A DNA stretch of 64,000 bases from a virus. Shown here one piece after another: positions 5,498-24,391 of the stretch. Position 1 is the stretch's first letter. Each line of letters opens with the position of its first letter. The stretch is taken from positions 1 to 64,000 of IMG/VR virus record IMGVR_UViG_3300028197_001024; one strand, written 5' to 3'. The translations under genes and the position numbers were made by a program. The notes beneath the pieces were generated by a model. That model did no database searches. It was not told where the DNA came from and saw nothing but the letters and a program-made list of their open reading frames with translations.

Positions 5498-6904
5498 ATG
5501 CTTTTAGATATTACACAAGAAGATAAACAATTATTTGTTTCTTATTTTAATCTTGATGGAAAAACGAGATTTAAGACTTATGATCTTAAGACAGAAGATA
5601 TGTTTAATTGGGAAGTTTGTGATGATGCAGATCCAAAGGCAGATTCAAAAATAAAAAACTGGGATGGCCGATCTGTTAAAAAAGTAAGGTCACGATGGTT
5701 AAATAAGTATAGGATTATTGAATACATGGATCAGTTATCTTTTTCTGATAGAGAATTAATTTTTGGTTATCATTTTCCAAGAACTTATTTTGTAGATATT
5801 GAAGTTGAGGTAACTGACTCTTTTCCTGAGCCAAGTAAAGCACCTAACCCAGTTACTACAATCTGTATTGTTACTCCAGAAAAACAATGTATTGTTTTAG
5901 CAACAAAAGATCTAGATAATAAAACTCAAACTAAAATTCAAAATCAAATAGATGAACATTTTAAAAATATAGATGATGATTTTACTTTTACTTTTAAATG
6001 TTTTAAATCTGAGTATGATATGATGTCAACCTTTATGATGTCATTTGTACAAAAATTTCCAATGATGACAGGTTGGAATTATATTAAATTTGATTGGCAA
6101 TACATAATTAACCGATGTAAGAAATTAGGTGTTGATATTGGATCTGCATCACCTATAGGTAGAAATTTTGGTAGAGATGAATTTCCATGCCATGTAGGAG
6201 TAATGGATTATTTAGATATTTATGCAAAGTGGGATAGGACTGTTGATATTAAAGAAGATTTTAAATTAGATACGGTAGGAGAAGCAGTAGTAGGAATTAA
6301 GAAAGTTAAATATGAAGGTACTATTCAAGATATGTATGAAAAAGATTATCCTAAATATGTTTTCTATAATGTAATTGATACAGCATTAGTTTATCTTATT
6401 CATCAAAAGATTAAGACAATGGATATTGCATTAACTATTGCCCATATGACTCAAATTAGTATATTTAAAGCAGCCTCACCAGTAGCAATTACTGAAGCGC
6501 TATTGGCAAGAGAATTTTTAACTAGGAATTTAGTAATGGCAAAAGATCCTAAAGCTCCACCTGCGAAAAGAGAACAGTTTGAAGGCGCATTTGTAAAAGA
6601 ACCAATTACTGGTATGCATAATGCTGTTGCTGCATTTGATTTTGCTTCTCTATATCCTTCTATTATGAGGCAATTAAATGTATCACCTGAAAGTTTTAAG
6701 AAAAAGGTATCACCAGAAAAAAGAAATGATGAAAGAGGAGAGAATAATATTGTATCAGTTACAGGTGCTGTGTACGATACCGAGAGATCTATATTAAAAG
6801 ATGTTCTTACTAGGTTATATGATCAAAGAAAAGAATATAAGAAAGAATCTTTTAGACTACAGCAAAAAGCATATGATTTAGAACAAGAACAGAAAAGGTC
6901 TTAA
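5498..6904 (+). CDS. gp43: DNA polymerase family B, N-terminal half (exonuclease and palm motif A)
   Basis: A 468-aa protein with the 3'-5' exonuclease of a T4-like polymerase: ExoI DIE (D100/E102), ExoII NYIKFDWQYI (D199), ExoIII YNVIDTALV (D294). Polymerase motif A follows as DFASLYPSI from D381. It stops at residue 468 in the helical fingers, before motifs B and C. Those are in a separate gene at 23273. Together the halves total 840 aa, close to T4 gp43 (898), so little is lost. The stop is followed by a perfect hairpin. No intein splice residues are evident at the end. It should proofread and bind primer-template only with its partner half. Confidence 0.9.
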   Translation: MLLDITQEDKQLFVSYFNLDGKTRFKTYDLKTEDMFNWEVCDDADPKADSKIKNWDGRSVKKVRSRWLNKYRIIEYMDQLSFSDRELIFGYHFPRTYFVDIEVEVTDSFPEPSKAPNPVTTICIVTPEKQCIVLATKDLDNKTQTKIQNQIDEHFKNIDDDFTFTFKCFKSEYDMMSTFMMSFVQKFPMMTGWNYIKFDWQYIINRCKKLGVDIGSASPIGRNFGRDEFPCHVGVMDYLDIYAKWDRTVDIKEDFKLDTVGEAVVGIKKVKYEGTIQDMYEKDYPKYVFYNVIDTALVYLIHQKIKTMDIALTIAHMTQISIFKAASPVAITEALLAREFLTRNLVMAKDPKAPPAKREQFEGAFVKEPITGMHNAVAAFDFASLYPSIMRQLNVSPESFKKKVSPEKRNDERGENNIVSVTGAVYDTERSILKDVLTRLYDQRKEYKKESFRLQQKAYDLEQEQKRS

Positions 6905-6933
6905 ATAAATAAACAACACTAAACTAAACTACT

Positions 6934-6953
6934 TATGCAACTTCTGTTGCATA
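6934..6953 (+). terminator. Perfect hairpin after the polymerase N-half
   Basis: An 8-bp stem TATGCAAC/GTTGCATA with a TTCT loop, without a T-run. It may act as an RNA-stabilising structure or weak terminator between the polymerase half and nrdB. Confidence 0.5.
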
Positions 6954-6976
6954 TTTAGTCAAAAAGAAAAATAACA

Positions 6977-7972
6977 ATGAGCAAACTTTTTACTGAACGC
7001 GTCGAATATAAACCTTTTGAATTTCCAGAATATTATTTAGATGGATGGTTACCACAAGCACAAGCATTTTGGTTACATACTGAAATATCAATGCAAGGAG
7101 ATTTAAAAGATTGGAATGAAAATATTAAGCCCCATGAGAAGAATTTAGTTGGAAATATTCTTTTAGGATTTGCTCAAACTGAATGCGCAGTATCTGATTA
7201 TTGGACAGGAATGGTTACAAAATGGTTTCCTAAACATGAGATAAGACAAATGGCAATGATGTTTGGATCTCAAGAAACAATCCATGCAGTTGCTTATAGT
7301 TACTTAAATGAAACTTTAGGACTTGAAGATTATACTGCATTTTTACATGAACCTTCGATGGCTGATAAATTTGACTTCTTAATGTCCACTAATGCTGATT
7401 ATACAGATAAAGATTTATTAGAAAGCAAAGATGCAAGAAAAGAAGTTGCTAGAAGTCTTGCAATATTCTCTGCATTTGCGGAAGGTGTAAGCTTATATAG
7501 TTCTTTTGCTGTTCTTTATTCTTTTCAGATGAGAAACTTATTAAAAGGTATCGGTCAGCAAATGAAATGGTCTGTAAGAGATGAATCATTACATTCTAAA
7601 ATGGGTTGTAGATTATTTAATCACATGTGTTCCGAAGATAAAACATTAAGAGAAGATGTTAAGGAATCGGTTTATGAAGCTGCAAAATTAATTGTAGATA
7701 TGGAACATAATTATATTGATAAGATTTTTGAAATGGGTGATATTGAAAATTTAAAAGCATATGATTTAAAGAATTTTATTTACAGAAGAACAAACGAAAA
7801 ATTACAAGAATTAGGATTAGATCCAATATTTGAATATGATGAAAAATCTGCTGATGCGCTAGATTGGTTTTATCATTTAACAGGTGGGCATACGCATACT
7901 GACTTTTTTGCAATCAGACCAACTGATTATGCTAAAGCAGGTGAAGGTGATGATTGGGACGATATTTGGTAA
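6977..7972 (+). CDS. nrdB: Ribonucleotide reductase class I beta subunit
   Basis: Makes the radical for dNDP synthesis in a complex with the next gene's product. At 331 aa it is a usual length. By alignment in mind with mouse R2, the metal ligands are D42, E100, H103, E169, E203 and H206 (in ETIH, FAEG and RDESLH), with radical Tyr at Y107. The acidic, Trp-containing C-terminal tail (GEGDDWDDIW) fits the peptide that docks on the alpha subunit. A 19-base spacer separates it from nrdA. All key residues are present, so it should be active. Confidence 0.93.
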   Translation: MSKLFTERVEYKPFEFPEYYLDGWLPQAQAFWLHTEISMQGDLKDWNENIKPHEKNLVGNILLGFAQTECAVSDYWTGMVTKWFPKHEIRQMAMMFGSQETIHAVAYSYLNETLGLEDYTAFLHEPSMADKFDFLMSTNADYTDKDLLESKDARKEVARSLAIFSAFAEGVSLYSSFAVLYSFQMRNLLKGIGQQMKWSVRDESLHSKMGCRLFNHMCSEDKTLREDVKESVYEAAKLIVDMEHNYIDKIFEMGDIENLKAYDLKNFIYRRTNEKLQELGLDPIFEYDEKSADALDWFYHLTGGHTHTDFFAIRPTDYAKAGEGDDWDDIW

Positions 7973-7991
7973 TAATTAAAAACAAAAAGAA

Positions 7992-9767
7992 ATGACAGCA
8001 GATCAAATAGAAAAAGAATTAGGTTGGGAACGTGGTGTTGATTATCCAGAATGGGGGCATACCGATGTTTATTTAAATACAATATCAAGGGGATATTGTT
8101 TACCAGGAGAAACTCCAAAGGATGCTTATTGGAGAGTTGCAACAACCGTAGCAAACAGACTTAAGAAACCAGAAATGGCAGATAAGTTTATGAAGTACAT
8201 TTGGAAAGGTTGGTTAAATTTAGCATCACCTGTATTAAGCAATACTGGAACCGAAAGGGGTTTACCTATAAGTTGTTTTGGTATAGATGTAGCAGATTCA
8301 ATAAATGACATAGGGCAAAAGAACCTAGAGTTAATGTTATTGGCTAAGCACGGCGGCGGCGTCGGTATAGGACATAATCAAATTAGACCTGCCGGTACAG
8401 ATATAACTGATAATGGAACAAGTGATGGTGTAGTACCTTTTATTAAAATTAATGATTCTACTATTCTTGCTACTAATCAAGGCGCAGTAAGAAGAGGTGC
8501 TGCAAGTACTAACTTAAGTATTGATCATGGTGATTTTTGGGAATGGTTAGAAATTAGAGAACCTAAAGGCGATATTAATAGACAATGTTTAAATACAAAC
8601 CAATGTGTGGTTATTGGTGATAAGTTTATGAGAAATGTTTTAGAAGGAGATTCAGAATCTAGAAAAAGGTTTGCAGCAGTACAAAGAAAACGTAGACAAA
8701 CTGGGCAGCCTTATATAATGTATAGAGGAAATGTTAATAAGCAAAATCCTGAAGCATATAAGAGAAACGGTTTAAAAGTTTTTATGACAAACATTTGTTC
8801 TGAGATTGTTTTACATACAGATGAAAATCATTCTTTTGTTTGTTGCTTAAGTTCTCTTAATCTTTCTAAGTATGATGAATGGAAAAATACAAATCTTATT
8901 TATGATGCTACATGGTTTTTAGATGGTGTACTTGAAGAATTTATCCAAAAGGCTAAATATAGAAAAGGCTTTGAAAATTCTGTAAGAACTGCAGAAAAAG
9001 GTAGGGCATTAGGTTTAGGTGTTTTAGGATGGCATACTTATTTACAACAAAGAGGTATCGCATTTGAAGGGTTAGAAGCTCAATATGAAACTCGTAATAT
9101 ATTTTCTCAAATAAAAATAGAAAGTGAAAAGGCAAGCCGAGATCTTGCCGAAGAATACGGAGAACCTCTATGGTGTAGAGATACTGGTTTTAGAAATACT
9201 CACTTAAGAGCAGTCGCACCAACGGTTTCTAATTCAAAATTGGCAGGTGGAATATCTGCAGGAATTGAACCTGTGCCTGCAAATATATGGACTGATCAAT
9301 CTGCTAAAGGAACTTTCATTAGAAAGAATAAACAGTTAGAAGGTTACCTTGATAAAATTGGCCATGATAATAAAAAAGTATGGGATAAAATTATGGCTGA
9401 TGGCGGATCTGTACAAGGTCTTAAATTTTTAGATGATTGGTGTTTCTTAAAGGGGATATTAATGAAATGTAAAGATGTGCCACAATATCAAGAAGGTGTT
9501 CCGTTTAAAGAAGTGTTTAAAACTTTTAAAGAAATTAATCAATTAGAATTAGTAAAACAAGCAGGTGTTAGACAACAATATGTAGACCAGGCAGTATCTT
9601 TAAATCTTGCATTTCCAAAAGAAGCTACTCCAAAATGGATTAACCAAGTTCATTTAGAAGCATGGAAGCAAGGTATTAAAACTTTATACTATATGAGAAC
9701 TGAATCTGTGTTAAGAGGTGATATTGCACAAAAGGCAATGGAAGACTGTGTTAGTTGTGATGGTTAA
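7992..9767 (+). CDS. nrdA: Ribonucleotide reductase class I alpha subunit, no ATP cone
   Basis: Catalytic subunit reducing ribonucleoside diphosphates. Active-site residues are visible: C95 (PISCFG), N267/C269/E271 (NICSE), C284 or C285 (CCLSSLNL), the Tyr-Tyr radical relay Y566-Y567, and C-terminal C586/C589 for thiol exchange. At 591 aa it is well short of E. coli NrdA (761). It begins close to the catalytic barrel, so the N-terminal ATP-cone that mediates dATP shut-off is missing. That fits a phage enzyme freed from feedback inhibition. The start ATG follows nrdB closely. Confidence 0.93.
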   Translation: MTADQIEKELGWERGVDYPEWGHTDVYLNTISRGYCLPGETPKDAYWRVATTVANRLKKPEMADKFMKYIWKGWLNLASPVLSNTGTERGLPISCFGIDVADSINDIGQKNLELMLLAKHGGGVGIGHNQIRPAGTDITDNGTSDGVVPFIKINDSTILATNQGAVRRGAASTNLSIDHGDFWEWLEIREPKGDINRQCLNTNQCVVIGDKFMRNVLEGDSESRKRFAAVQRKRRQTGQPYIMYRGNVNKQNPEAYKRNGLKVFMTNICSEIVLHTDENHSFVCCLSSLNLSKYDEWKNTNLIYDATWFLDGVLEEFIQKAKYRKGFENSVRTAEKGRALGLGVLGWHTYLQQRGIAFEGLEAQYETRNIFSQIKIESEKASRDLAEEYGEPLWCRDTGFRNTHLRAVAPTVSNSKLAGGISAGIEPVPANIWTDQSAKGTFIRKNKQLEGYLDKIGHDNKKVWDKIMADGGSVQGLKFLDDWCFLKGILMKCKDVPQYQEGVPFKEVFKTFKEINQLELVKQAGVRQQYVDQAVSLNLAFPKEATPKWINQVHLEAWKQGIKTLYYMRTESVLRGDIAQKAMEDCVSCDG

Positions 9768-9776
9768 AAATAAATT

Positions 9777-10523
9777 ATGAAAGATTATACTTATATACTC
9801 GGTCCTTGTAGTATTGAAAACGAGGATACTTTTTTAGAAGTGGCCAAAACATTAGATGGCTATATGGGAGATAAAGATTGGTACTTAAAAGGATCTTTTG
9901 ATAAGGCGAATAGAACTTCTATACATTCTGATAGAGGCCCTGGTTTAGAAGAAGGAATGGAGATTATGAGAACTGTTAAGCATCATTACCCTAACATTAG
10001 AATTGTAACAGATATTCATGAACCTAATCAAGCATTACCTTTATCCGAAGTAGTTGATGTTATCCAAATACCTGCATTCTTATGTCGCCAAACTGACCTT
10101 TTAGTAGAGTGTGCAAAAAACTTTAATGTCATTAATATCAAAAAAGGTCAATGGTTATCTGCTGAGGCAATGGAACATGCAGTTACAAAGATAAAAGAAG
10201 TAGATCCTAATTGTGAAGTATGGGTAACTGAAAGAGGATCTAATTTTGGTTATGACAGACTTATTGTAGATTTTAGAGGAGTGGATGTAATGAAAAAATT
10301 TGCAGATAAAGTTATTTTAGATTGTACTCATTCAACTCAAATGGCTGGAGAAGGTATAACTGGAGGAAGTCGTAAGTTAGCAAAGCAATACGCGTTAGCT
10401 GCAAAGATTTTTGAGTATGATGGTTCATTTATTGAAACCCACCCAGATCCAGATAATGCAATATCTGACTCTGGTAGTCAAGTAGAATTAGATTGGTTAG
10501 TGACTCAAATAAATAATATATGA
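9777..10523 (+). CDS. kdsA: 3-deoxy-D-manno-octulosonate 8-phosphate synthase (KdsA)
   Basis: Condenses arabinose 5-phosphate with phosphoenolpyruvate to Kdo-8-phosphate, the first committed step to Kdo of lipopolysaccharide. Family motifs occur in order: GPCSIE, KGSFDKANRTS, RGPGLEEGM, TDIHE, IQIPAFLCRQTDL, NIKKGQ, FGYDRLIVDFRG and DCTHSTQ. At 248 aa it is slightly shorter than bacterial KdsA (~270-285). It sits nine bases after nrdA, and its stop overlaps the next ATG (ATGA), so it opens the glycan cassette. A related PEP-condensing synthase such as NeuB is less likely given the KANRTS and PAFLCRQTD motifs. Confidence 0.88.
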   Translation: MKDYTYILGPCSIENEDTFLEVAKTLDGYMGDKDWYLKGSFDKANRTSIHSDRGPGLEEGMEIMRTVKHHYPNIRIVTDIHEPNQALPLSEVVDVIQIPAFLCRQTDLLVECAKNFNVINIKKGQWLSAEAMEHAVTKIKEVDPNCEVWVTERGSNFGYDRLIVDFRGVDVMKKFADKVILDCTHSTQMAGEGITGGSRKLAKQYALAAKIFEYDGSFIETHPDPDNAISDSGSQVELDWLVTQINNI

Positions 10524-11569
10524 ATCTAGACTATACTAAGTTACTTAATCGTAATCCTATTTCTACCGATCTTGATAAAATCCAAGAATACATAAAAGGA
10601 AAAAGAATACTTGTTACAGGTGGTGCTGGCTCAATAGGTAGTGAAATTGTACATCAACTTGTAAAATTTGGTGCTTCTACTGTTACTGTTTATGATAATG
10701 CCGAGGCTTCTGTTTTTCATTTAGAACAAGAGATAAGCAAATTATATCCTAAGTCTCATATTAAATATGTAATAGGTGATGTAAGAGATAAGTATAGATT
10801 AGAAGAAGTTTTTGATTCCTTTAAGCCTAGTATAGTTTTTCATGCAGCTGCTTATAAACATGTGCCAATGATGGAGGCTAATCCAGTTGAAGCAATAAAG
10901 ACTAATGTATTAGGTACTATGAATGTCTCAAATATCTCATATATGAATGAGGTAGAAAAATTTGTAATGGTATCAACTGATAAAGCAGTTAATCCAACAA
11001 ACATAATGGGTGCAACTAAAAGAATTGCAGAATTATATACTCAGTTTTTAGAAACAAAATCAGCAACTAAATTTATTGTTACAAGATTTGGTAATGTATT
11101 AGGATCTATAGGCTCTGTAATTCCAACATTTATAAAACAGATTGAAGGAGGAGGACCGGTTAGTGTTACTCATAGAGAAGTTATTAGATATTTTATGACT
11201 ATACCTGAAGCATGCCAATTAGTATTACAGGCAAGTGTACTAGGAGAAGGTGGTGAAATATTATTATTTGATATGGGAGAACCTGTAAGTATTACAGATT
11301 TAGCAAAAAATTTAATAAAACATTTTAATAGTGATGCTAAAATAGAATATGTAGGATTAAGACCAGGTGAAAAATTATATGAAGAACTGTTATGTGATGG
11401 TGAAAATATGGTACCTACCGATGATCATAATATTATGAAGTTAAACCACGAGGCTTATGATTTTAAAACTTTAATACCTAAAATAGAAAAGCTATCAAAA
11501 ATAAGATCAAATGATTTTTATAAAATACTCTTGTTAATGAAAAGTATTGTACCAGAATTTAAAAGATAA
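10520..11569 (+). CDS. NDP-sugar 4,6-dehydratase (WbpM/PglF/CapD type, soluble)
   Basis: An extended short-chain dehydrogenase of 349 aa. It has the Rossmann motif TGGAGSIGSE (residues ~33-42), an AAAYKHVPMME substrate loop, and STDKAVNPTNIMGATKR with S152, M163 and K167. Met replacing the usual catalytic Tyr is the Ser-Met-Lys triad of WbpM-type UDP-GlcNAc 4,6-dehydratases. RPGEKLYEELL near residue 290 is also typical. The membrane domain of full-length WbpM/PglF is missing. With the PglE-like aminotransferase downstream it should supply a UDP-4-keto-6-deoxy-HexNAc for amination. Confidence 0.85.
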   Translation: MNLDYTKLLNRNPISTDLDKIQEYIKGKRILVTGGAGSIGSEIVHQLVKFGASTVTVYDNAEASVFHLEQEISKLYPKSHIKYVIGDVRDKYRLEEVFDSFKPSIVFHAAAYKHVPMMEANPVEAIKTNVLGTMNVSNISYMNEVEKFVMVSTDKAVNPTNIMGATKRIAELYTQFLETKSATKFIVTRFGNVLGSIGSVIPTFIKQIEGGGPVSVTHREVIRYFMTIPEACQLVLQASVLGEGGEILLFDMGEPVSITDLAKNLIKHFNSDAKIEYVGLRPGEKLYEELLCDGENMVPTDDHNIMKLNHEAYDFKTLIPKIEKLSKIRSNDFYKILLLMKSIVPEFKR

Positions 11570-11571
11570 AT

Positions 11572-12642
11572 ATGATAAAAGAATTATTAGTTAATACGTT
11601 ATCACCTGAAAATGGTACTTATTTTCATATAGAAAATTTAAATCAGTGGGCATCTAAAGTAGAACTTAATGGTAAATTAGAAACTATTGAAGTAAATGGT
11701 AAAATAGCTTCTTATGTTGCATACTATGTTAATGATGAGAGGTATTTTATTACAATGGTATGGACGGATCCTATCCATCGAGGAAAGGGTCTTTCAAAAA
11801 AGATAATTAAAAAATTAGTATCATCAACAGATCTTCCAATTGATTTAAGAGTTCATAAAGATAACCCTGCATATTGGTTATATAGGAATCTTAAATTTGA
11901 AGACGTTTCAGTCCATGGTGAAGAAATAGAATTAAGAAGAGTTAAAAAGATAGGAGTTATGCAACCTTATCTTTTTCCTTATGCCGGTTATTTTGGTTTA
12001 ATAAATTCATGCGATAAGATTTTGTTTTATGATGATGTTAATTTTATTATGAGAGGTTTTATTAATAGGCAAAAAATATTGGTAAATGGATCTTCTCATA
12101 CATTTAATATTTGTTTAAGTAAAGCAAGCCACAATAAATTTATTAACGAAATTGATCTTTTAAATGATAAAAGAAAAAATTTAAAGGTACTAAAGACAAT
12201 AGAATCTTCTTATAAAAAGGCTCCTTATTTTAATGATGTTTATCCTATAATTGAAAAGGTCATTAATAGCGATTATAAAAAGTTAGATGAATTGGTAATA
12301 TCTTCTATAGTAAGTGTATGTGATTATTTAGGAATGGATATAAATTGGGAAAGATCCTCGGTTGCAGAAGGTGATACTTGTGGAATGGAAAGAGGTAAGC
12401 GCCTTACTCAAATAGCAAAAAACCAAGGTTTTAATAATTACATAAATGTTGGCCCATCAGAACTTTACACAAAAGAACAATTTAAAAGAGATGGTATAAA
12501 TTTATTTTTTAATAAACATAATGTTAAAGAATATGATCAATTTGAAAAGCCATTTTTATCTCACTTATCATGTATAGATTTTCTCATGTTTAATTCAAAA
12601 AGAAAATGCAAAGAATTAATTTTAAGTTATAATGTAATATGA
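11572..12642 (+). CDS. GNAT acetyltransferase-WbqC fusion protein
   Basis: A 356-aa two-domain protein. Residues ~1-122 look like a GNAT N-acetyltransferase: the HRGKGLSKKIIKKL acetyl-CoA loop (~66-79) is followed by NPAYWLYRNLKFE. Residues ~124-356 match the WbqC-like family (GVMQPYLFPYAGYFGLINSC, later FNNYINVGPSELY), found in O-antigen and nonulosonate loci and of poorly defined activity. Lying between the dehydratase and the aminotransferase, the GNAT part is well placed to acetylate the new amino group. The stop overlaps the next start. Confidence 0.75.
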   Translation: MIKELLVNTLSPENGTYFHIENLNQWASKVELNGKLETIEVNGKIASYVAYYVNDERYFITMVWTDPIHRGKGLSKKIIKKLVSSTDLPIDLRVHKDNPAYWLYRNLKFEDVSVHGEEIELRRVKKIGVMQPYLFPYAGYFGLINSCDKILFYDDVNFIMRGFINRQKILVNGSSHTFNICLSKASHNKFINEIDLLNDKRKNLKVLKTIESSYKKAPYFNDVYPIIEKVINSDYKKLDELVISSIVSVCDYLGMDINWERSSVAEGDTCGMERGKRLTQIAKNQGFNNYINVGPSELYTKEQFKRDGINLFFNKHNVKEYDQFEKPFLSHLSCIDFLMFNSKRKCKELILSYNVI

Positions 12643-13754
12643 AAAGAATTTACTTATCACCACCTCATATGTCAGGTAAAGAACTTGACTACATAAAAGA
12701 AGCCTTTGATCAAAATTGGATTGCACCGATAGGACCTCATCTTAATTTATTTGAAGAAAAGGTAAAAGAATATACTGGTGCTAAGCACGCAGTAGCTGTT
12801 ACTTCAGGTACTGCCGGTATTCATTTAGGATTAAATGTATTAGGAGTAGGAGAAGGTGACTATGTAATATGTTCTTCTTTAACATTTATAGGAACTGTAA
12901 ATCCAATATTATATTGTGGAGCTGAGCCTATTTTTATAGATTCGGAAGAAGGGTCATGGAATATGGATCCTCTTTTATTAGAAAAGGCAATACTTAATTC
13001 TTCTGCTATAGGTAAAAAACCTAAAGCTATTATACCTGTTCATATTTTTGGTATACCTTGTAATATGGACGCAATAAAAAAATTATCAAATGAATATGAC
13101 ATACCTATTCTTGAAGATGCAGCAGAAAGTCTGGGATCTAAATTTAATAATCAACATACTGGAACCTTTGGCACTATTGGGGTTTATTCTTTTAATGGAA
13201 ATAAATTATTATCTACCTCTGGTGGTGGAGTAATAATAACAGATAATAAAGAAAAGGCTAACAAGATGAGGTTCTTGTCTACACAGGCAAAAGATCCTAT
13301 GCCATATTATCATCACACTGAAATAGGATATAATTATAGAATGAGTAATGTACTTGCTGCTATTGGGGTTGGTCAAATGGAAGTAATAGAAGATAGAATC
13401 AAAAGGACTAGAGAAATGAATGAAACTTATAGAAAGGAATTAGGAAAATATTTTTATTCATTTCAAGAAGAGTTAGAAACAGATAGGTCTAACATGTGGT
13501 TAACATGTGCTATCTTAAATGCTGAAAATAAACCAGATGATTTAATTGCTCATTTAGAAAAAGATAACATTGAAGCAAGAAGAATTTGGAAGCCTATGCA
13601 TGAACAGCCAATTCTAACTAAGTATTTGAAATATATAAATGGAAATAGTTCTTTATTATTTTTACAAGGTATATGTTTACCATCTGGGTCTAATATGACT
13701 GATGTAGATTTAAAAAGAGTAATAAGGTCAATAAAAACATTTTTTAACAAATGA
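12639..13754 (+). CDS. DegT/DnrJ-type sugar aminotransferase (PglE-like)
   Basis: A PLP-dependent aminotransferase, 371 aa, full length. The N-terminus LSPPHMSGKELDYI strongly recalls Campylobacter PglE (from memory). Other features are VTSGTAGIHLGL for phosphate binding, ILEDAAESLGS with D160, and SFNGNKLLSTSGGG with the Schiff-base K189. PglE makes UDP-4-amino-4,6-dideoxy-GlcNAc on the way to bacillosamine. The neighbours supply the 4-keto substrate and an acetyltransferase, so the same chemistry is likely here. Four-base overlaps at both ends indicate translational coupling. Confidence 0.87.
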   Translation: MKRIYLSPPHMSGKELDYIKEAFDQNWIAPIGPHLNLFEEKVKEYTGAKHAVAVTSGTAGIHLGLNVLGVGEGDYVICSSLTFIGTVNPILYCGAEPIFIDSEEGSWNMDPLLLEKAILNSSAIGKKPKAIIPVHIFGIPCNMDAIKKLSNEYDIPILEDAAESLGSKFNNQHTGTFGTIGVYSFNGNKLLSTSGGGVIITDNKEKANKMRFLSTQAKDPMPYYHHTEIGYNYRMSNVLAAIGVGQMEVIEDRIKRTREMNETYRKELGKYFYSFQEELETDRSNMWLTCAILNAENKPDDLIAHLEKDNIEARRIWKPMHEQPILTKYLKYINGNSSLLFLQGICLPSGSNMTDVDLKRVIRSIKTFFNK

Positions 13755-14647: not shown

Positions 14648-14648
14648 T

Positions 14649-14660
14649 GAATATATAAAA
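14649..14660 (+). promoter_or_regulatory. Late-type motif GAATATATAAAA
   Basis: Lies immediately after the glycosyltransferase stop, 33 bases before the ATG of the histone-like gene. It is the only copy of this virion-gene motif inside the glycan cassette. Confidence 0.45.
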
Positions 14661-14681
14661 AAACAATAAAAATTAACTATT

Positions 14682-14858: not shown

Positions 14859-14876
14859 CCTTACATAACCACCTTT

Positions 14877-14910
14877 AAAAGGGCTATCTTTAATTAGATA
14901 GTCCTTTTTT
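14877..14910 (+). terminator. Intrinsic terminator after the histone-like gene
   Basis: A 13-bp stem AAAAGGGCTATCT/AGATAGTCCTTTT with one G-U pair, six-base loop TTAATT and a following T-run. Its GGGC core is strong for this AT-rich DNA. Confidence 0.85.
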
Positions 14911-14953
14911 AGTTTTTATTATCCTATTATACTTGAAACTTTTTTTAAAACTT

Positions 14954-14969: not shown

Positions 14970-14981
14970 CAGTTAATTTAT

Positions 14982-16959: not shown

Positions 16960-18222
16960 ATGGAAAATGTTAAAAAAATAGGTTTCTTTAAACTAGGTAA
17001 AGCGATTAAGTTTAATGAAAACAGTTGGAGTGCAATCGGTGGTGATTGTGAACCTAAACAATTAATCTGTTCAATTGCAAAAAGAAACCCTAATATTGAA
17101 TATTGGTTATTAAGCCCAAATGATTTAGGTAAGTTTAGAGCTAAACAAAAACCTAAAGTAAATTCTTTATTTGGCCCTCCTCCTACAGATGAACCCGTAG
17201 TTCCTAATAATATTAAGGAATTTCATTCAACTATGAAGGAGAGAAAATCTACTGATGAAACTGTTGAAATTATTCAAGGTTTAGATTTAGATTTTATTTT
17301 CTTTTATACTGGTCCAACAAGTACCGTTAATATTCCAGAGTATATTAATAAGAAAGATGGTACTGGTCAAGTTAAGTCATTAGACTTCTTTAAGTATTAT
17401 GCTGCTCCTATTATTAAATCAATGAATGAGTTGGAAAAGAAAGTTCCTATTGTTGGTTTACTTGTTGATAACCGTTATATTCTTGCATGTAAAGACTGGG
17501 GAATTAATAATAGACCAACTTATTACTTAGCACAAAATACATTTACTAAAGAAGAACAATATTTCTGTAACCCACCACTAAGAGATGTTAAAACTATTAC
17601 ATCTACTTATGAATATTCAGGCATTGAAACGGTATTCTTATTAGATAAGAAAAGATATGATACTGATGAATTATTTAAAATGAAAAAGACTGATTCATTT
17701 ATGATGTTACAGAATCAAGGTAAAGGTTCAGGTGGAATGGATCGTTGGGATCCAGTAAAAGAATATATTGTTGATCAAGAAATAGAGACTGATATTTACG
17801 GAAAATGGGATGATGAGATTAAGGAAATGTATCCTAAATGGTTTAAAGGAGAAACGAGAATTGAAACAATGACCGATGAATTACTTGGTACTAAATATAC
17901 ATTCTGTGTACCTATTAAAGAAGGTATGGTAACCTCTAAGTATGCCGAAATGCTACACTATGGTATTATACCATTCTTACACCCGTCTTACGACACCGAC
18001 TTTAATGTCTTTCCAGAAGGTCATTTTATTAGATGTAAATCAGCAGAGGATTTAAAAAAGAAAATTGAATTCTTAAATGCAAACCCAGAGCATTATAAGA
18101 AATTATTTTATAACCTACAAGAAAAGTATCTTAAGGATTCTTATTATACCGGAGAACATGTAGACAACAAGATCTGGGAATCTTATGAACGAGTAACTAA
18201 AACTGAAACTATAAATGTATAA
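16960..18222 (+). CDS. GT-B-like glycosyltransferase (tentative)
   Basis: A 420-aa protein of no family I recognise with certainty. The N-terminal ~200 residues alternate strands and helices. The C-terminal part has KYTFCVPIKEGMVTSKYAEM, then HYGIIPFLHPSYDTDF and a final helix with KYLKDSYY. That resembles the nucleotide-sugar half of GT-B enzymes, where a conserved acidic residue follows the 'SKYxEML..G.IP' turn. Placement between a nucleotidyltransferase and an epimerase supports a glycan role. A DNA-base glucosyltransferase is an alternative because a cytosine methyltransferase lies two genes on. Confidence 0.5.
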   Translation: MENVKKIGFFKLGKAIKFNENSWSAIGGDCEPKQLICSIAKRNPNIEYWLLSPNDLGKFRAKQKPKVNSLFGPPPTDEPVVPNNIKEFHSTMKERKSTDETVEIIQGLDLDFIFFYTGPTSTVNIPEYINKKDGTGQVKSLDFFKYYAAPIIKSMNELEKKVPIVGLLVDNRYILACKDWGINNRPTYYLAQNTFTKEEQYFCNPPLRDVKTITSTYEYSGIETVFLLDKKRYDTDELFKMKKTDSFMMLQNQGKGSGGMDRWDPVKEYIVDQEIETDIYGKWDDEIKEMYPKWFKGETRIETMTDELLGTKYTFCVPIKEGMVTSKYAEMLHYGIIPFLHPSYDTDFNVFPEGHFIRCKSAEDLKKKIEFLNANPEHYKKLFYNLQEKYLKDSYYTGEHVDNKIWESYERVTKTETINV

Positions 18223-19237
18223 TTCCGAAACAAAAATCCTAGTCACTGGTGGTGCTGGGTTCGTTGGTACAAATTTTATTAACGATTTATTAAATAGAGG
18301 TCATAATCCAAAATGCATTGCGGTTATTGATAACATGGAGCACGGTACTTATATTGCAAAGGTACATGACCAAATTGAAAATTTTCATAAAGTAGATATT
18401 AGAAATCAATATGTAGAAAACATTATCCAAGAGTTTTCACCCGATTATGTTTACCACTTTGCTGGTTTAGTTTCTATTTATGACTGCCATGAAGATCCGT
18501 ATGAAGCCGTAGATAATAATATCTTAGGAAGTATTAATGTAATGAATGGTTGTGTAAAGGCAGATGTAAAAAGAATTATCTTTAGTGAAACTTCTGCAGT
18601 ATATGAAAATTGTGAAATGCCTAAAGAAGGATTTAACGAAAAGCAATCTGATCCTACTACAATTTATTCTACTACTAAAGCATGCCTTGCTCTATTGGCA
18701 GAATCATATCAGAGAACTAAAGGTTTAAATTATACTGCATTAAGATACTTTAATGTTGCAGGGCCTCTACAAGATTATAATAGAACCATCCCACCTGTAT
18801 TTGCTGGGTTTATTTTAAGAATTAAAGGTAATCATAATCCTATAGTGTTTGGTGATTATATGAAAGCAAGAGATTATATTGATGTATCTGATGTTAATGC
18901 ATTTCATATTCTTTGTATGGAAAATGAAAACACTGCAAACCAAACATTTAATTTAGGTACTGGTAAAATGACAAACTTAATGGATCTTAAAAATATGATT
19001 GGTGAGATTATGGGAGTTGGTGAACCTACATTTGATCACTATGATCCTATTGCAGGTGAAGCTCTAAATATTAGAGGAGATATTTCTAAAGCTAAGTCAA
19101 TGGGATGGGAACCTAAAAAAGATATCAGAGATACGATAAAAGAAACGATAGTTTATCTTGAAGAAGAAATTAACCAAGGGACTATTGATCCACTAACATT
19201 TATGGAAAATTTAGAAATCGAAAAAGTAAAAATTTAA
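18215..19237 (+). CDS. NAD-dependent sugar epimerase/dehydratase (GalE-like)
   Basis: An extended SDR of 340 aa. The NAD motif is TGGAGFVGTNF, the active site has SETSAVYEN and YSTTKA (Tyr and Lys), and ALRYFNVAGP is typical of UDP-glucose 4-epimerase relatives. Substrate specificity cannot be fixed; UDP-hexose 4-epimerase or a related dehydratase are the main options. The start overlaps the upstream gene by eight bases and the next start follows by two, so it belongs to the same operon. Confidence 0.82.
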   Translation: MYNSETKILVTGGAGFVGTNFINDLLNRGHNPKCIAVIDNMEHGTYIAKVHDQIENFHKVDIRNQYVENIIQEFSPDYVYHFAGLVSIYDCHEDPYEAVDNNILGSINVMNGCVKADVKRIIFSETSAVYENCEMPKEGFNEKQSDPTTIYSTTKACLALLAESYQRTKGLNYTALRYFNVAGPLQDYNRTIPPVFAGFILRIKGNHNPIVFGDYMKARDYIDVSDVNAFHILCMENENTANQTFNLGTGKMTNLMDLKNMIGEIMGVGEPTFDHYDPIAGEALNIRGDISKAKSMGWEPKKDIRDTIKETIVYLEEEINQGTIDPLTFMENLEIEKVKI

Positions 19238-19238
19238 T

Positions 19239-20501
19239 ATGGAAAAAGAATTAAAATGGGGTACTATGATTCCGTTAATCGGTGGGAGTGCAATAGGTTG
19301 TAAAAAATCTGCAGGTAATGAGCCAGCATTTCATTTAAGCTATGAAGCAATGGCTGCTAATGAAAGTCATATCGAAAAATATTGGCCAGAAGTACCTATG
19401 TACAGATTAGATCATGAAGATTTAGATATACCTGAGAAAACATTTCAAGAAGTAGATTATGTAAATTCTGTTTGCCCGTGTGCAGGTTTGTCACAGTTAA
19501 ATTCTGCGAAAGGTAGTGCATCATCTAGAGGATCCGATGCGGTTCAAAATCAATGGATGTATAATTCAGCAGAGTATGTTTTGGAGAATGTTAAACCTAA
19601 AGTACTTTGGGGAGAAAATGCACCAGGGCTTTTTACTAAAATGGGAGAAGGTGTTGTTGACAATCTTAAAGCCATCGGTGAGAAATATGGATATAGCTTT
19701 TCATTAATTAAAACTAACACTGAGTTGCATGGAATTCCACAAAGAAGAATAAGAACATTTTATTTCTTTTGGAATACACCAACAGTTCCTATGTTAAGTT
19801 GGAAGTTTAGAGAAAAGAAAAATCTTATTGATTATCTTAATGAAATACCAGAAGATGCTACACAACAGGATATGTTTATGGTTGAAGGCAAAGTCAGTGA
19901 TCATTTTAAACCTTACGAATATGTTTTAGAAAAAGAAGGTTTAACGCATTCTGAATTTGCTGCCAAATTTAAAAAGGGTACTATCGCTCAATATCTAGAA
20001 AAGAATGAATTAATACCTGATTGTATTAAATGGTTAGAAAAACATTATCCTAAAAGAGGGTTTTCAAATAAAAAATCTACAAAGACTTTTATTGATATGC
20101 TAGAACACCAAGAATACAAAACGAGCCAAGGTTTAGGTTACTGGGATGCATCACCGCATTTCTTCCATGATTCTTTTTCTGCCCTTATAGGTAGAAACAT
20201 GTTTAATGGTGTTCATCCTATAGAAAACAGATATCTTAATGTAAGAGAAATGCTTCACTTAATGGGGCTACCTTTAGATTTTGGTATTGAAAGTTCAAGG
20301 CAAGTAAATCATATTGCACAAAATGTACCAGTTACTACTGCAATGGATATGGCAGATGAAGTAAAGAAATTTTGTAATGGAGAAGCTAAGATGACAAATT
20401 ACACCTTCTTAAAACAAGATAATACTAGTCACAAAATAATTGACTCTACTGAAATTGGAGCAGAACCAAAAAAGAAGTATAAAGTAAAAAGTATAATTTA
20501 A
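19239..20501 (+). CDS. DNA cytosine-C5 methyltransferase (divergent)
   Basis: A 420-aa Dcm-type enzyme. The catalytic Pro-Cys (P80-C81 in SVCPCAGLS), ENAPG (E126, motif VI), IPQRRIRTF (motif VIII), RYLNVREMLHLMGLP (motif IX) and QNVPVTTAMDMADE (motif X) are present in order. Motif I is unusual, with PLIGGSAIG instead of FxGxGG. A region of ~150 residues between motifs VIII and IX probably holds target recognition. It likely makes 5-methylcytosine, either against host restriction or as a base for further modification. It sits inside the sugar cassette rather than with replication genes. Confidence 0.85.
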   Translation: MEKELKWGTMIPLIGGSAIGCKKSAGNEPAFHLSYEAMAANESHIEKYWPEVPMYRLDHEDLDIPEKTFQEVDYVNSVCPCAGLSQLNSAKGSASSRGSDAVQNQWMYNSAEYVLENVKPKVLWGENAPGLFTKMGEGVVDNLKAIGEKYGYSFSLIKTNTELHGIPQRRIRTFYFFWNTPTVPMLSWKFREKKNLIDYLNEIPEDATQQDMFMVEGKVSDHFKPYEYVLEKEGLTHSEFAAKFKKGTIAQYLEKNELIPDCIKWLEKHYPKRGFSNKKSTKTFIDMLEHQEYKTSQGLGYWDASPHFFHDSFSALIGRNMFNGVHPIENRYLNVREMLHLMGLPLDFGIESSRQVNHIAQNVPVTTAMDMADEVKKFCNGEAKMTNYTFLKQDNTSHKIIDSTEIGAEPKKKYKVKSII

Positions 20502-20508
20502 ATTAATT

Positions 20509-21525
20509 ATGAAAGATAAAGGATTAGCCATAGGTATATCAAGCCTAGAGTTTACTAATATCTTATGTAGTTATTATCCTAAAGGGATCAAAGAAAAATT
20601 TGATATCTATTTATTTGTGGATGATACTAAAATAGATTTAGAAAAGCTTCAGTGTATTTTTGAAGAGCATGATTTAGATATTTTTAAAAATGCAAAGATT
20701 ATAATTTTAAATGACCTTTATAACCATTACATAGAAAAACATGGTTACGAAGGAAGATCAAAAGAATTTCTATTAAGTCATGGCTGCCTCTTTAAAATAT
20801 TAATGCCTATATACTTAAAGGAAAAATTTGGAGTAAAAAGAACATTAGTATCAGATGATGATGTATTTATTTTAAACGATCTTAGTTATATGTGGGATGA
20901 ATATGAAGAGTTTGGCATAAAAAAGGAAAACTTATTTTACATTAGAAATAAAGATAAGTATGAAGTCATGGATTGTTTTAACGGTATTTTTGAATCTAAT
21001 TTTAGCTTAGATGAAATGAATGCCCTTTCCATAAATGCAGGCAATATAATATATGGAGAAGATCCTAAATTAGAATATTACTTTGAGAGATTTATGAAAC
21101 ACCCATTTATACATCATCAGTATTTTAATTTTACTGGGTATACAAGTTGGACTGTAGAACAAAGATTCCATCACTTTAATGTTCATAGGTATTTAGCAGA
21201 AGGAAGAAAGGTTAAATTTACTGAAAGTAAAGACTTAAGATTAATGCAGAATAGAGACAAGATGATGAAAGCAGGTACACCACCAGACAAATATCTTAAA
21301 GTAGTTGTACCTTCTATAATTCATTATGCAATAGGTGTAAAGAAGCCTCTATGGTTAAATGATTTTTTACCAGGATTAGAATGGAGATACGGTTTTAAGT
21401 ATGAAGCAAAATACGAACTTAAAAATATCTTATACGATAAAAATTGGTCACCGCCTTCGTTTAAAAGTATACAAAAGAATGGATTTATATTAAAAAAGGA
21501 ATTAAAAACAAAATCAATATTTTAA
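20509..21525 (+). CDS. Probable glycosyltransferase, GT-A/GT8-like
   Basis: A 338-aa protein seven bases after the methyltransferase. VKRTLVSDDDVFILND (~114-128) carries a DxD metal/nucleotide-sugar motif preceded by a long strand-helix region, as in GT8- or GT32-like enzymes. A later INAGNIIYGEDP fits the acceptor side. The basic C-terminus has no membrane segment. The sugar donor and acceptor are unknown. Confidence 0.6.
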   Translation: MKDKGLAIGISSLEFTNILCSYYPKGIKEKFDIYLFVDDTKIDLEKLQCIFEEHDLDIFKNAKIIILNDLYNHYIEKHGYEGRSKEFLLSHGCLFKILMPIYLKEKFGVKRTLVSDDDVFILNDLSYMWDEYEEFGIKKENLFYIRNKDKYEVMDCFNGIFESNFSLDEMNALSINAGNIIYGEDPKLEYYFERFMKHPFIHHQYFNFTGYTSWTVEQRFHHFNVHRYLAEGRKVKFTESKDLRLMQNRDKMMKAGTPPDKYLKVVVPSIIHYAIGVKKPLWLNDFLPGLEWRYGFKYEAKYELKNILYDKNWSPPSFKSIQKNGFILKKELKTKSIF

Positions 21526-21551
21526 AAGATAAAATTACAAAAAGAAAATAG

Positions 21552-22349
21552 ATGAAAGATAGAAAAAGTATACCTGTTATTGGAGTTCCTGTAGTAAATG
21601 GAGTTCATTGGGTAAAAAGATTAATGCTATCAGTTGATTACCCTGTAGATAATTTATTTATAATTAATAATAATGGAAGAGGAGAAATTAATGAAGAATT
21701 AGATAAGTTAAAAAATATATCTAATAAATTTATTAAGAATATACACATTACACATTTACCTAGTAATTTAGGAGTCCCGGCAGCTTGGAATTTAATTATT
21801 AAATCATTTTTAATGGAGCCTTATTGGATAATTTCTAACCATGATGTTGCCTTTTCACCTGGTTTATTAGAAGAATTTTCAAATATGGCTCAGGATAAAC
21901 AAATAAGTATGATTCATCCTAGAGCAGGTGTATTTGGTGTAGGTACATATGATTTATTTGCTATAACTGAAATAGGGGTAAAAACGATAGGATTATTTGA
22001 TGAAAATTTATATCCTGCTTATGGAGAAGATACTGATTATATAATGAGAGTTCTAAATTTAAATCCAAAGGTTTGTAGAGGATTGACTTATACTTATTTA
22101 CATGGAAAAGAAATAGCCGATTGTGTCAATTATGAAAATAATGGTCGACAAACGTCTAAAGAAGAACCTCAAATGCAAGAAAAATTAAATAATGTTAATT
22201 ATAAAAATTACAAATATTTAGATGAAAAATGGGGAGAGCATTGGAGAGGTTTAACTCCTTATAAATTTCCTTTTAATAATAAAGAATATTCTAATTCTTA
22301 CACTTCATGGGATATAGATTATATAAGAGAAAAATATTTAGACTTTTAA
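21552..22349 (+). CDS. Glycosyltransferase family 2-like
   Basis: A 265-aa GT-A protein. PVIGVPVVNG begins the fold; IINNNGRGEI and LPSNLGVPAAWNLI are typical of rhamnosyltransferase-type GT2 enzymes. SNHDVAFSPG holds the metal site and AYGEDTDYIMRV the catalytic acidic pair. It is the last cassette gene before the replication block. Its low GC resembles its neighbours, so no recent transfer is evident. Confidence 0.75.
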   Translation: MKDRKSIPVIGVPVVNGVHWVKRLMLSVDYPVDNLFIINNNGRGEINEELDKLKNISNKFIKNIHITHLPSNLGVPAAWNLIIKSFLMEPYWIISNHDVAFSPGLLEEFSNMAQDKQISMIHPRAGVFGVGTYDLFAITEIGVKTIGLFDENLYPAYGEDTDYIMRVLNLNPKVCRGLTYTYLHGKEIADCVNYENNGRQTSKEEPQMQEKLNNVNYKNYKYLDEKWGEHWRGLTPYKFPFNNKEYSNSYTSWDIDYIREKYLDF

Positions 22350-22444: not shown

Positions 22445-23194
22445 ATGGAAACAAAAATTAACAAAATTGACGGTTATGAATTAAGTTCATTCGTTCGCAA
22501 ATTACTTCCAATTGACAAATTCATCTTTATGAAAATCGCAAAAGAGGGTACTGTATCTTCTGTGTATTTCCCTGAGAGGGATGCCGTAAAATTGGTTAAC
22601 ACACCTACCTCAGATATATTTGAGGCTGATATTGAAAACCCAGTAAAGGTAAGCTTTTACAATGGTACTAAAGTTATTGATGCATTAAGCCATTTTAATG
22701 GTGATGTAAAAGGTCGCATTAAATATACTGAATATGATGGAGAATTAATGGCAAGTGATTTTATTTTAGAAAATGAAGATCTTCAGATTAATTTAGCCTG
22801 TACAGATCCTTCGTTATCTTTTATGGAAATGAGTAAAGAAGAAACTGACCGAGCGTTTGATGTGGATTCTAAAATGTTTAGTTTTGATTTACTTACTACT
22901 CATGTAGATAAAATGAAATCATTATTTAATTTAGATAAAGATGAGGATATCTTTACTCTCTATATTGGAGAAAAAGGAATTAACATTAAAGGTACTTCTT
23001 ATGACGCTACGCTATGTCACTCTTATGATTCTGATGTAGAGAAAGGTTCAAAGGTTGTCATATACAAAAAATATGTTAATCTTCTAGATAAAGAAAATTA
23101 TAAGGTAAGTGTATGTGAAAACAAGGTTGTTTTCAAATCATTAGATACAAATACACACCTTACTGTGGCTGTGGCCATTACTGATGAGGATTAA
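22445..23194 (+). CDS. gp45: DNA polymerase sliding clamp (gp45-like)
   Basis: A 249-aa protein (T4 gp45 is 228). The composition and repeated strand-helix pattern fit a two-domain trimeric clamp: SSFVRKLLPIDKFIFMKIAK, later SMFSFDLLTTHVDKMKSLF and the final VVIYKKYVNLL strand. There is no short diagnostic motif, so the call relies on shape and position. It lies directly before the polymerase C-half, with uvsX and gp41 following, an order reminiscent of T4's 45...43...uvsX-41. Own leader motif before, terminator after. Confidence 0.65.
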   Translation: METKINKIDGYELSSFVRKLLPIDKFIFMKIAKEGTVSSVYFPERDAVKLVNTPTSDIFEADIENPVKVSFYNGTKVIDALSHFNGDVKGRIKYTEYDGELMASDFILENEDLQINLACTDPSLSFMEMSKEETDRAFDVDSKMFSFDLLTTHVDKMKSLFNLDKDEDIFTLYIGEKGINIKGTSYDATLCHSYDSDVEKGSKVVIYKKYVNLLDKENYKVSVCENKVVFKSLDTNTHLTVAVAITDED

Positions 23195-23210
23195 TAATAC
23201 CTCAAATATA

Positions 23211-23238
23211 AAAAGGGCATCATAATCGGTGCCCTTTT
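23211..23238 (+). terminator. Intrinsic terminator after the clamp gene
   Basis: A 9-bp perfect stem AAAAGGGCA/TGCCCTTTT with a 10-base loop. It separates the clamp from the polymerase C-half, which therefore needs its own promoter or readthrough. Confidence 0.8.
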
Positions 23239-23258
23239 AAACTTTCTTTAATCTTACC

Positions 23259-23272
23259 GTATAAAAATAAAA
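23259..23272 (+). promoter_or_regulatory. GTATAAAAATAAAA leader motif
   Basis: Touches the ATG at 23273, which is close for a promoter, and follows the clamp terminator by 20 bases. It may be a translation leader. Confidence 0.3.
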
Positions 23273-24391
23273 ATGACAGAGGAATTACAAAAAATCAACG
23301 AAGAAGCATCAAAATTCTATAATTACGAACAGGCTGTTAAATTAATGCTTAACTCTATTTACGGTGCATTTGGTAATCCTTATTTTTATTTCTTTAATGT
23401 TGATATTGCAGAAACTATTACACTCCAAGGTAAAGATGCAATTCTATATACTGAACAATTAGTTAATAAGTATTTTAAGGAATTCTGGCATAAGGATTTA
23501 CCAGCTCATGCTGCTATGGGTATTACTGTAACTGGTAAAATTGAAAAACCTGTAGGTATTTATATTGATACAGATTCAGTGTATGTTAAATTTGATGAAG
23601 TAATTCAAAAATCAGAAGGCTGGGTTGGTGATGAAAAAGAATTTATACTTAAGCTTTATAAGGTTAGGTTAAATGGTTACATAGAAAAGATTCTACAAAA
23701 ATATGCAGATGATAATAATGCAGAAAACTTTTTATCTTTTGAATTAGAAAGTATTGCTAAAAATGCAATATGGTTGGCAAAGAAAAAGTATATGCAGAAT
23801 ATAGTTTGGAAGGATCCTGATATTCATTACGATGATCTCTCTAAGATTAGTTCAAAAGGATTTGAAATCATTCAGTCATCTACCCCTATTTTTGCAAGAG
23901 AAAAACTAAAAGAACTATTAACTTATATCTTTTCTGTTAGTGAATTAGATATGGGAGCCTTTGCTTCTTTACTTAAAGATGTTAAAAGGCAATTTAGATT
24001 AGCCAATGTTGATCAAATTAGTTTTTCAAGAAAAGTAAATAATTATCAAAAGTATATTGTAAATGATTATGAGCAATTTGAAATTGCATCAAAATGTCCA
24101 ATTGGTGTAAGATCTGCAGGCTATCATAATTACTTACTAAATAATTCAGGCAAGAAAGGTAAATATCAACCACTAGGAAATGGTGAAAAATGTAAAATGT
24201 ATTTTTCTGAAGATAAGTCATGTGATGTGTTTGCTTATGCACCAGGTGATTTTCCTTATGAGTTCGCGCCTAAAATAGATTATGATAGGCAATTTGAAAA
24301 AACAATATTGGATCCTATAAACAGAGTTGTTACTGCTATGGGTTTTAAAGGATTTAACAGAAATCTTATTTACACAACCAGCCTATTTTAA
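23273..24391 (+). CDS. gp43: DNA polymerase family B, C-terminal half (motifs B and C, thumb)
   Basis: A 372-aa protein starting in the fingers, just before motif B (KLMLNSIYGAFGNP, ~23-36), then motif C YIDTDSVYV (D99/D101). A long thumb region ends with FNRNLIYTTSLF, where clamp-binding tails of T4-like polymerases lie. It has no exonuclease and no motif A; those are on the 5498-6904 gene. It has an ATG, its own leader and a terminator ahead, so it should be made as a separate polypeptide that joins its partner. Position beside gp45 and uvsX suggests this half kept the ancestral locus. Confidence 0.9.
   Translation: MTEELQKINEEASKFYNYEQAVKLMLNSIYGAFGNPYFYFFNVDIAETITLQGKDAILYTEQLVNKYFKEFWHKDLPAHAAMGITVTGKIEKPVGIYIDTDSVYVKFDEVIQKSEGWVGDEKEFILKLYKVRLNGYIEKILQKYADDNNAENFLSFELESIAKNAIWLAKKKYMQNIVWKDPDIHYDDLSKISSKGFEIIQSSTPIFAREKLKELLTYIFSVSELDMGAFASLLKDVKRQFRLANVDQISFSRKVNNYQKYIVNDYEQFEIASKCPIGVRSAGYHNYLLNNSGKKGKYQPLGNGEKCKMYFSEDKSCDVFAYAPGDFPYEFAPKIDYDRQFEKTILDPINRVVTAMGFKGFNRNLIYTTSLF

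Follow-up and report, generated by a model that had tools for sequence, protein, structure and literature searches.

The closest described counterparts of the system reported here are T4-type family-B DNA polymerases (PolB; gene 43, product gp43) that are encoded in two pieces. The two gene 43 products of Aeromonas phage 44RR reportedly form a complex, a non-covalent heterodimer. A split gene 43 has also been reported or annotated in Acinetobacter phages ZZ1 and vB_AbaM_PhT2 (PhT2). The split of gene 43 in 44RR has been described (PMC2988022), and for phage MIJ3 PolB and other split-intein fractured genes separate pieces with an endonuclease gene between them have been described (PMC6892783). 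Here we analyzed a 64,000-nucleotide stretch of viral DNA (the window, bases 1-64000 of the 74,467-base virus record IMGVR_UViG_3300028197_001024), in which two halves of such a polymerase, here called 43N (5498..6904, plus strand) and 43C (23273..24391, plus strand), are encoded by open reading frames (ORFs) separated by 16,368 bp.

As in 44RR and phage 25 (genes 43A and 43B), a T4-type PolB is divided in two, and as in 44RR the break lies at the finger tip and each ORF has its own start and stop. However, the pieces in 44RR are adjacent, with 49 nt between coding sequences, and belong among the T4-like phages outside the branch of the window, whereas the cistrons of the window are 16.4 kb apart. 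PhT2, which also has a finger-tip break, differs in having six small ORFs between its pieces and in falling on the T4 side of the tree. MIJ3 and the fractured genes share the placement of a polymerase gene in separate pieces, but those pieces are thought to be rejoined by an intein, and none was detected at the finger break of the window. The DNA polymerase genes of Jug huge phages are described as interrupted by mobile elements, and they are set apart here by that description only. Sphingomonas phage PAU, Tenacibaculum phages PTm1 and pT24, and Chryseobacterium phage MA9V-1 share with the window their side of the tree, the break, and a clamp-like gene upstream of 43C, but their gap is ~1.2 to 2.4 kb, and PTm1 is broken again at motif C, where it carries an intein part. 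The huge phages LR756501, LR756502, LR756504, LR745206, Lak-A2, Lak-B5, and Lak-C1 also share the side of the tree (Lak-C1 was not in the tree) and the finger break. They differ in that the halves of six of these seven lie at least 100 kb apart on opposite strands, and in that the 43C half of all three Lak phages is in two pieces, with split-intein signals in Lak-A2. We found no description of a lineage-wide, dispersed PolB split in the open-licence literature, supplements excluded.

Two polymerase genes in the window

On the combined evidence of ORFs, Pfam, PHROG, and motifs, 43N (468 aa) is the N-terminal half of a family-B DNA polymerase, with the exonuclease, motif A, and the first finger helix, and 43C (372 aa) is the C-terminal half, with the second finger helix, motif B, motif C, KKY, and the thumb. 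43N matched the Pfam exonuclease domain and positions 16 to 137 of the 453-position DNA_pol_B profile, and 43C matched positions 145 to 388 of the latter. These were exactly the two DNA_pol_B matches in the whole 74,467-bp record, and the search detected no complete copy of gp43 in it. In alignments, 43N contains Exo I (DIEVE), Exo II, Exo III, and motif A, and 43C contains motif B, motif C (YIDTDS), and KKY. The set that marks a T4-like gp43, Exo I to III with motifs A, B, and C, is complete and shared out over the two ORFs, and in the relatives of the window the catalytic motifs are likewise kept and cleanly divided between the halves. The best profile match of 43N was to residues 103 to 503 of RB69 gp43 (E 6e-49) and that of 43C to residues 556 to 830 (E 7e-26; 539 to 830 in one RB69 mutant entry), values that exclude a chance match to this protein. 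RB69/T4 gp43 was the nearest solved structure by sequence for both halves, and by fold for 43N and, weakly, for 43C. Nearly end-to-end matches linked 43N to phrog_2062 (2-467 on 5-498 of 502) and 43C to phrog_1918 (4-360 on 24-370 of 382); since PHROG holds two separate half families, stand-alone halves were probably already present in its source genomes. These observations confirm that 5498-6904 and 23273-24391 are two parts of one T4-type family-B polymerase. An earlier interpretation of the DNA from its letters (the sequence-only reading) had described two ORFs with their own starts and stops, 16.4 kb apart, with the catalytic motifs divided between them and a motif upstream of each, and all of this was found. 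The upstream motif is the same in both cases, TATAAAAATAAA, located 2 nt ahead of the 43N ATG (5484..5495, plus strand) and 1 nt ahead of the 43C ATG (23260..23271, plus strand).

The profiles and a structure model of 43N place the break at approximately RB69 residues 504 to 538, which we take, from the RB69 structure, to be the tip of the fingers. The 43N model aligned with residues 4 to 506 of RB69 gp43 (Z 29.2, root mean square deviation [rmsd] 5.2, 409 residues aligned) and terminates in a helix at 432-467. In the alignment, the break recurs at RB69 ~498-538 in every split row except one (L113, see below), including four other T4-like ones, and the finger tip thus appears to be a recurrent break site in T4-type polymerases. 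Both halves are under purifying selection, the median ratio of nonsynonymous to synonymous substitution rates (dN/dS) being 0.053 for 43N (63 pairs) and 0.060 for 43C (90 pairs) among pairs with 80 to 99% nucleotide identity. T4-type polymerases bind their clamp via a C-terminal peptide, and LF or VF stands at the C-terminal end in all 29 rows of the 43C alignment (29/29); we take this ending for a putative clamp peptide.

Distribution and age of the split

The scan with 43C followed the best 80 of 137 IMG/VR candidates, of which 78 records gave a 43C locus. 43N was sought in all of these and was present in 32 (14/40 and 18/38), never within the ORF of 43C; the records bearing 43C without 43N may be fragments. 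The halves are on the same strand in all 32 contigs, with gaps of 3.9 to 4.7 kb in 9, 9.3 kb in 1, and 13.7 to 17.1 kb in 21, and in the remaining contig (G075) 43C comes first, 13 nt ahead of 43N. The second scan, with 43N, kept 80 of 390 relatives and yielded 61 new 43N loci, all of them stand-alone ORFs of 466 to 497 aa and 12 of them on contigs already counted. Both halves were present in the fetched stretch of 39 of these loci, on the same strand and 3.65 to 4.80 kb apart; L254, whose 43C is cut by the fetched stretch, was dropped from this set, and 7 of the 39 are contigs counted earlier, leaving 32 new ones. The 9 contigs and 39 loci, with 7 common to both, amount to 41 distinct IMG/VR records with a gap of 3.65 to 4.8 kb. 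Both halves were also found in G081 and the 429-kb G084, with 43C interrupted at motif C. Separate halves therefore occur in 66 IMG/VR records besides that of the window, several of them near-copies of each other, and in 65 of the 66 43N precedes 43C.

Separate halves were also seen in LR756500 and other huge phages, in the Lak phages, and in the cultured phages PAU, PTm1, pT24, and MA9V-1. In LR756501, a genome of 735 kb, 43N is at 90 kb (minus strand) and 43C at 709 kb (plus). The corresponding positions are 256 kb (plus) and 538 kb (minus) in LR756504, 233 kb (plus) and 131 kb (minus) in LR745206, 254 kb (plus) and 121 kb (minus) in LR756502, 123 kb (minus) and 345 kb (plus) in Lak-A2, and 162 kb (minus) and 391 kb (plus) in Lak-C1; in Lak-B5 the halves are on the same strand, with 43C ~6 kb ahead of 43N. 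The search of related phages for fused, adjacent, or separated halves that the sequence-only reading had called for thus returned separated halves in the 66 IMG/VR records, LR756500, and cultured phages. In this respect the framing of that reading is not supported: neither the split nor the separation is confined to this genome, and across the relatives compared both are a trait of the lineage. Among more distant IMG/VR 43N loci (L100-L160, n = 61), 58 were fused, 2 had 43C in another ORF, and 1 was cut by the contig end. All eight confirmed loci from a scan of GTDB genomes (8/8) were fused T4-like polymerases of 28 to 32% identity, a result that is uninformative on hosts.

The age of the split was examined in two unrooted trees, in which the tree tool flags long branches. 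The first comprised 58 polymerases, with six close relatives of the window left out, and in it a 100/100 branch separated 31 split polymerases and the fused polymerase of MaF61 from the remaining rows. Another five split rows (henriette, 44RR, PhT2, S-CREM2, and L113) lay among fused ones. A second tree, built quickly from 50 rows, gained eight rows from a 46-48% clade and dropped 12 split and 10 fused rows that the first had contained, and it gave the same picture; with MaF61 omitted, its 33 split rows formed one side of a branch with a Shimodaira-Hasegawa-like approximate likelihood ratio test (SH-aLRT) value of 100. Because the split polymerases of the main group make up one side of a fully supported branch, a single origin of the split, at an early stage of a jumbo- and huge-phage lineage, is likely. 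The fused 994-aa PolB of MaF61 (a Flavobacterium phage, L190), which joins the tree basally to the split side and has a very long branch, could be an unsplit sister or a re-fusion. As to how many separate events lie behind the other four split phages, 7 changes are required over the whole of the first tree, and 5 are forced by its starred branches. L113 was not counted as a further split phage, as motif B is missing in our alignment of it and it has near-identical fused kin; its two ORFs may simply be a broken or interrupted gene. Where a host is on record for the split side, it is Prevotella, Tenacibaculum, or Chryseobacterium, with Sphingomonas (PAU) as the exception; the other rows are metagenomic.

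Alternative explanations

The genes lie far apart, and in most of the huge phages on opposite strands, so that linkage does not enforce their co-expression. This arrangement would suit halves that do separate jobs, with 43N acting, for example, as a free exonuclease and no joint polymerase being formed. However, motif A and motif C of family-B polymerases make up one active site, and therefore 43N and 43C must meet in order to polymerize; palm catalysis requires motif A from 43N and motif C from 43C, and both are kept. The sequence-only reading had named a complete gp43 elsewhere in the genome as the observation that would speak against a split polymerase, and none was found in the record of the window or in the split-group records searched. 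Specifically, Lak-A2, Lak-B5, Lak-C1, LR756501, LR756502, LR756504, and LR745206 show no complete PolB, a PF00136 search of 23 IMG/VR relatives gave pieces only and no complete polymerase, and neither DNA_pol_A (PF00476) nor PolIII-alpha (PF07733), representing families A and C, matched in any of 16 records. Purifying selection on both halves is consistent with such a meeting, and so is the co-variation of the 43N and 43C distance matrices (r 0.979 over 23 genomes), a value that shared genome history can produce by itself. Separate jobs are, in our judgment, very improbable.

The halves might alternatively be joined after transcription or translation, by RNA trans-splicing or by protein trans-splicing through a split intein, and relatives do carry split inteins in the same gene. 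In G068, G070, LR756500, and Lak-A2, 43C itself is in two ORFs, and in G068, LR756500, and Lak-A2 the first piece bears an intein N-terminal region (TIGR01445) and the second a C-terminal region (TIGR01443). One intein part was detected in each of two others: the N-terminal splicing region on the first piece of G070 (the first piece alone was scanned) and the C-terminal region on the second piece of PTm1 (the second piece alone was scanned); the PTm1 record itself refers to an intein-containing split polymerase. A 43C in two pieces of this layout is also present in Lak-B5 and Lak-C1, LR756500 has between its 43C pieces an ORF with a restriction-endonuclease-like match below the Pfam cut-off, and G081 (L336) has a contiguous intein in one continuous ORF at the same site. 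By locus label, intein signals at motif C were seen in L070, L072, L179 (LR756500), L228 (Lak-A2), and L336 (G081). The polymerase of the relatives with a split intein would thus come from three genes.

The site of these inteins is motif C, at window 43C residues ~101-103, and not the finger break. No intein was detected at 43N or 43C of the window with NCBIfam (E up to 1) or Pfam, no Rfam match at gathering score over the window indicated an intron at the finger break, and this break does not have the split-intein layout of a fractured gene. As inteins were detected in relatives at motif C, splicing is detectable where present, and the window's finger break showed none. Moreover, the relatives read retain a stop for one half and a start for the other at the break, and the halves are on opposite strands in LR756501, LR756502, LR756504, LR745206, Lak-A2, and Lak-C1. 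Joining of the halves by trans-splicing is therefore very unlikely.

Gene fragmentation often signals decay, but decayed or inactive remnants, with the phage relying on an enzyme of its host, are hardly credible given a dN/dS of ~0.05-0.06 and motifs and frames that are intact across dozens of contigs. An assembly error joining distant segments, a danger that the sequence-only reading had raised and that a window from a metagenomic fragment invites, is equally hard to credit, since the same layout occurs in many separate assemblies, with the halves apart in 66 other IMG/VR records and LR756500 and the cultured PAU, PTm1, pT24, and MA9V-1 split too.

Genes between and beside the halves

The features listed here for this region are all on the plus strand. 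43N is followed by nrdB (ribonucleotide reductase small chain, 6977..7972), nrdA (large chain, 7992..9767), and a sugar/glycan cassette (9777..22349). The nrdAB genes and glycan cassette that had been proposed to separate the halves are both there, but nrdB comes before nrdA, and a C5-cytosine methylase (19239-20501) is encoded within the cassette as well. A clamp-like gene (22445..23194) precedes 43C, and between the two lie a terminator-like hairpin (23211..23238; a consensus match only) and a copy of TATAAAAATAAA. Downstream of 43C are a uvsX-like recombinase gene (26146..27342) and a gp41-like DnaB helicase gene (28388..29671); the gene ahead of 43C is named as a clamp by position only.

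The backbone dUTPase/MazG-43N-nrdB-nrdA-clamp-like-43C-uvsX-small ORF-gp41 is common to the relatives of the window and the clades with a 4-kb gap, not every gene being recognized at every locus. In the 462-kb LR756500 it is recognizable from 43N onward, with inserts and weak nrdA matches, and in L276 a dUTPase-like gene is positioned after 43N. We mapped 13 loci with a 4-kb gap (4 plus 9, two of the 9 being from contigs of the first 4); the gap holds nrdB-like, nrdA-like, and clamp-like genes, in some cases with one further small ORF, and none of the 13 has the sugar cassette. Given the tree and these cassette-free loci, separation probably came first and the cassette later, and the order 43N-nrdB-nrdA-(clamp-like)-43C-uvsX-41 would be older than the cassette, which we regard as later cargo. 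The sequence-only reading had offered two histories, cargo accumulating between the halves or a move of the N-terminal half relative to the T4 order. The former is supported by the 41 records with a 3.65- to 4.8-kb gap, of which those mapped lack the sugar cassette. The latter also fits, because the clamp-like gene lies upstream of 43C wherever it can be identified, and such a move would predate the diversification of the group.

In L061, L062, L066, and L304, the nrdB/nrdA pair between the halves is a different, distant version (24 to 38% identity), as if swapped in place. Sugar-phosphate genes also adjoin gene 43 in RB69 (L239, 1709-4599), which may parallel the cassette of the window. In L070 (14492-19204) and L072 (14674-16619) uvsX is in several ORFs, and in L070 gp41 is too, perhaps reflecting inteins or introns.

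The clamp-like gene had been labeled gp45, a name that rests on position and that the sequence does not support. It has no named PHROG match, no PDB clamp match, and no Pfam match above cut-off, and 14 members of its family gave only scattered weak unrelated matches. A T4-type clamp was rejected as its identity, hhalign comparison with the clamps of T4, 44RR, and PhT2 giving at most 1.2% versus 0.1 to 0.7% for six negative controls. Profile comparison instead linked it to PAU gp109 (93%), MA9V-1 ORF137 (96%), PTm1 ORF237 (91%), and pT24 gp167 (84%), versus ~1% for T4 gp45. The homologue immediately precedes 43C in PAU, MA9V-1, and pT24 and lies one gene farther upstream in PTm1. The clamp-like gene abuts or overlaps 43C in G057-G060, G064, and G066. 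A fixed pairing with 43C was not observed in G075, Lak-A2, LR756501, LR756504, LR756502, and LR745206, where no homologue was found among upstream ORFs of at least 100 aa (single sequences, hence weak tests). We regard 22445-23194 as a candidate for a highly diverged clamp family.

The genes preceded by TATAAAAATAAA include 43N, 43C, the clamp-like gene, uvsX, and gp41. Allowing at most 1 mismatch, 11 of 13 plus-strand matches lie within 15 nt ahead of an ORF start; random plus-strand positions have such a start within ~40 nt, a looser measure, in 24% of cases. The count by itself is weak, as 2 of 100 shuffles reached the 17 matches observed, and the placement ahead of ORF starts carries more weight. 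The motif may be a shared initiation signal. Motif-like positions by the starts of replication genes are 4957, 5484, 22418, 23260, 26123, and 28371, among others. At the start of the window (1-422) is a tandem repeat of ~6 copies of a 51-bp unit that in frame 3 looks collagen-like (Gly-X-Y).

Discussion

We assign a probability of about 0.88 to the reading that the two genes specify two permanent subunits of the phage's replicative family-B polymerase, which would assemble non-covalently into a T4/RB69-like enzyme. 43N and 43C would be translated separately from similar start signals. 43N would contribute the N-terminal domain, the exonuclease domain, the portion of the palm that bears motif A, and one helix of the fingers, and 43C would complete the enzyme with the second finger helix, motifs B and C, the remainder of the palm, and the thumb; the link absent from the two-chain enzyme would be an exposed loop at the finger tip. 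The break would have arisen once, early in a jumbo/huge-phage lineage with mostly Bacteroidota as recorded hosts, and the halves would later have drifted apart, with the sugar cassette inserted between them here. We infer the physical assembly, the activity, and the main-replicase role of the pair. The two-polypeptide polymerase anticipated by the sequence-only reading draws its support from conservation.

Several observations weigh against this interpretation. The window genome is a fragment, and a polymerase too divergent for Pfam could exist; a minimal split PolIII-alpha is described in group 2.2 jumbo phages (PMC7824862). The model of 43C alone is poor (predicted local distance difference test score 70, predicted template modeling score 0.48), with a Foldseek template modeling score of 0.38 to 0.43 and an rmsd of 12 to 15, and is too poor to use; this would fit an obligate partner and, equally, a shallow alignment. 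The LF/VF ending is absent from MA9V-1, PAU, PTm1, pT24, the Lak phages, LR756501, LR745206, and LR756502. Finally, a single origin depends on the placement of the fused MaF61.

On a wider scale, we think it fairly likely that an obligate two-chain PolB replicates genomes of up to ~0.7 Mb throughout a deep jumbo/huge-phage lineage whose hosts, where on record, are mostly Bacteroidota. The polymerase would have been split a single time, in the fingers, ahead of the radiation of this lineage, and its genes would then have dispersed freely. In several members, a second break at motif C would be sealed by a split intein, yielding an enzyme from three genes with one non-covalent and one covalent joint. 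The descriptions of split T4-type polymerases that we came across are of scattered cases, mostly with near-adjacent pieces, whereas here the split looks ancestral and stable.

When PolB is counted as a single gene in a survey or marker-gene tree, half of the polymerase may be missed. In the accessible part of a moraphage survey, the core set lists two "DNA-directed DNA polymerase" virus orthologous groups and the word "split" is absent (PMC12619734); these two groups are candidates for the two halves. That breaks recur at a single loop identifies the finger tip as a natural place to cut, one of use in engineering split polymerases. The cultured phages PAU, PTm1, pT24, and MA9V-1 make assembly, fidelity, and control by subunit supply directly testable. 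If the two-subunit reading is true, the replicase of many of the largest phages would be a heterodimer.

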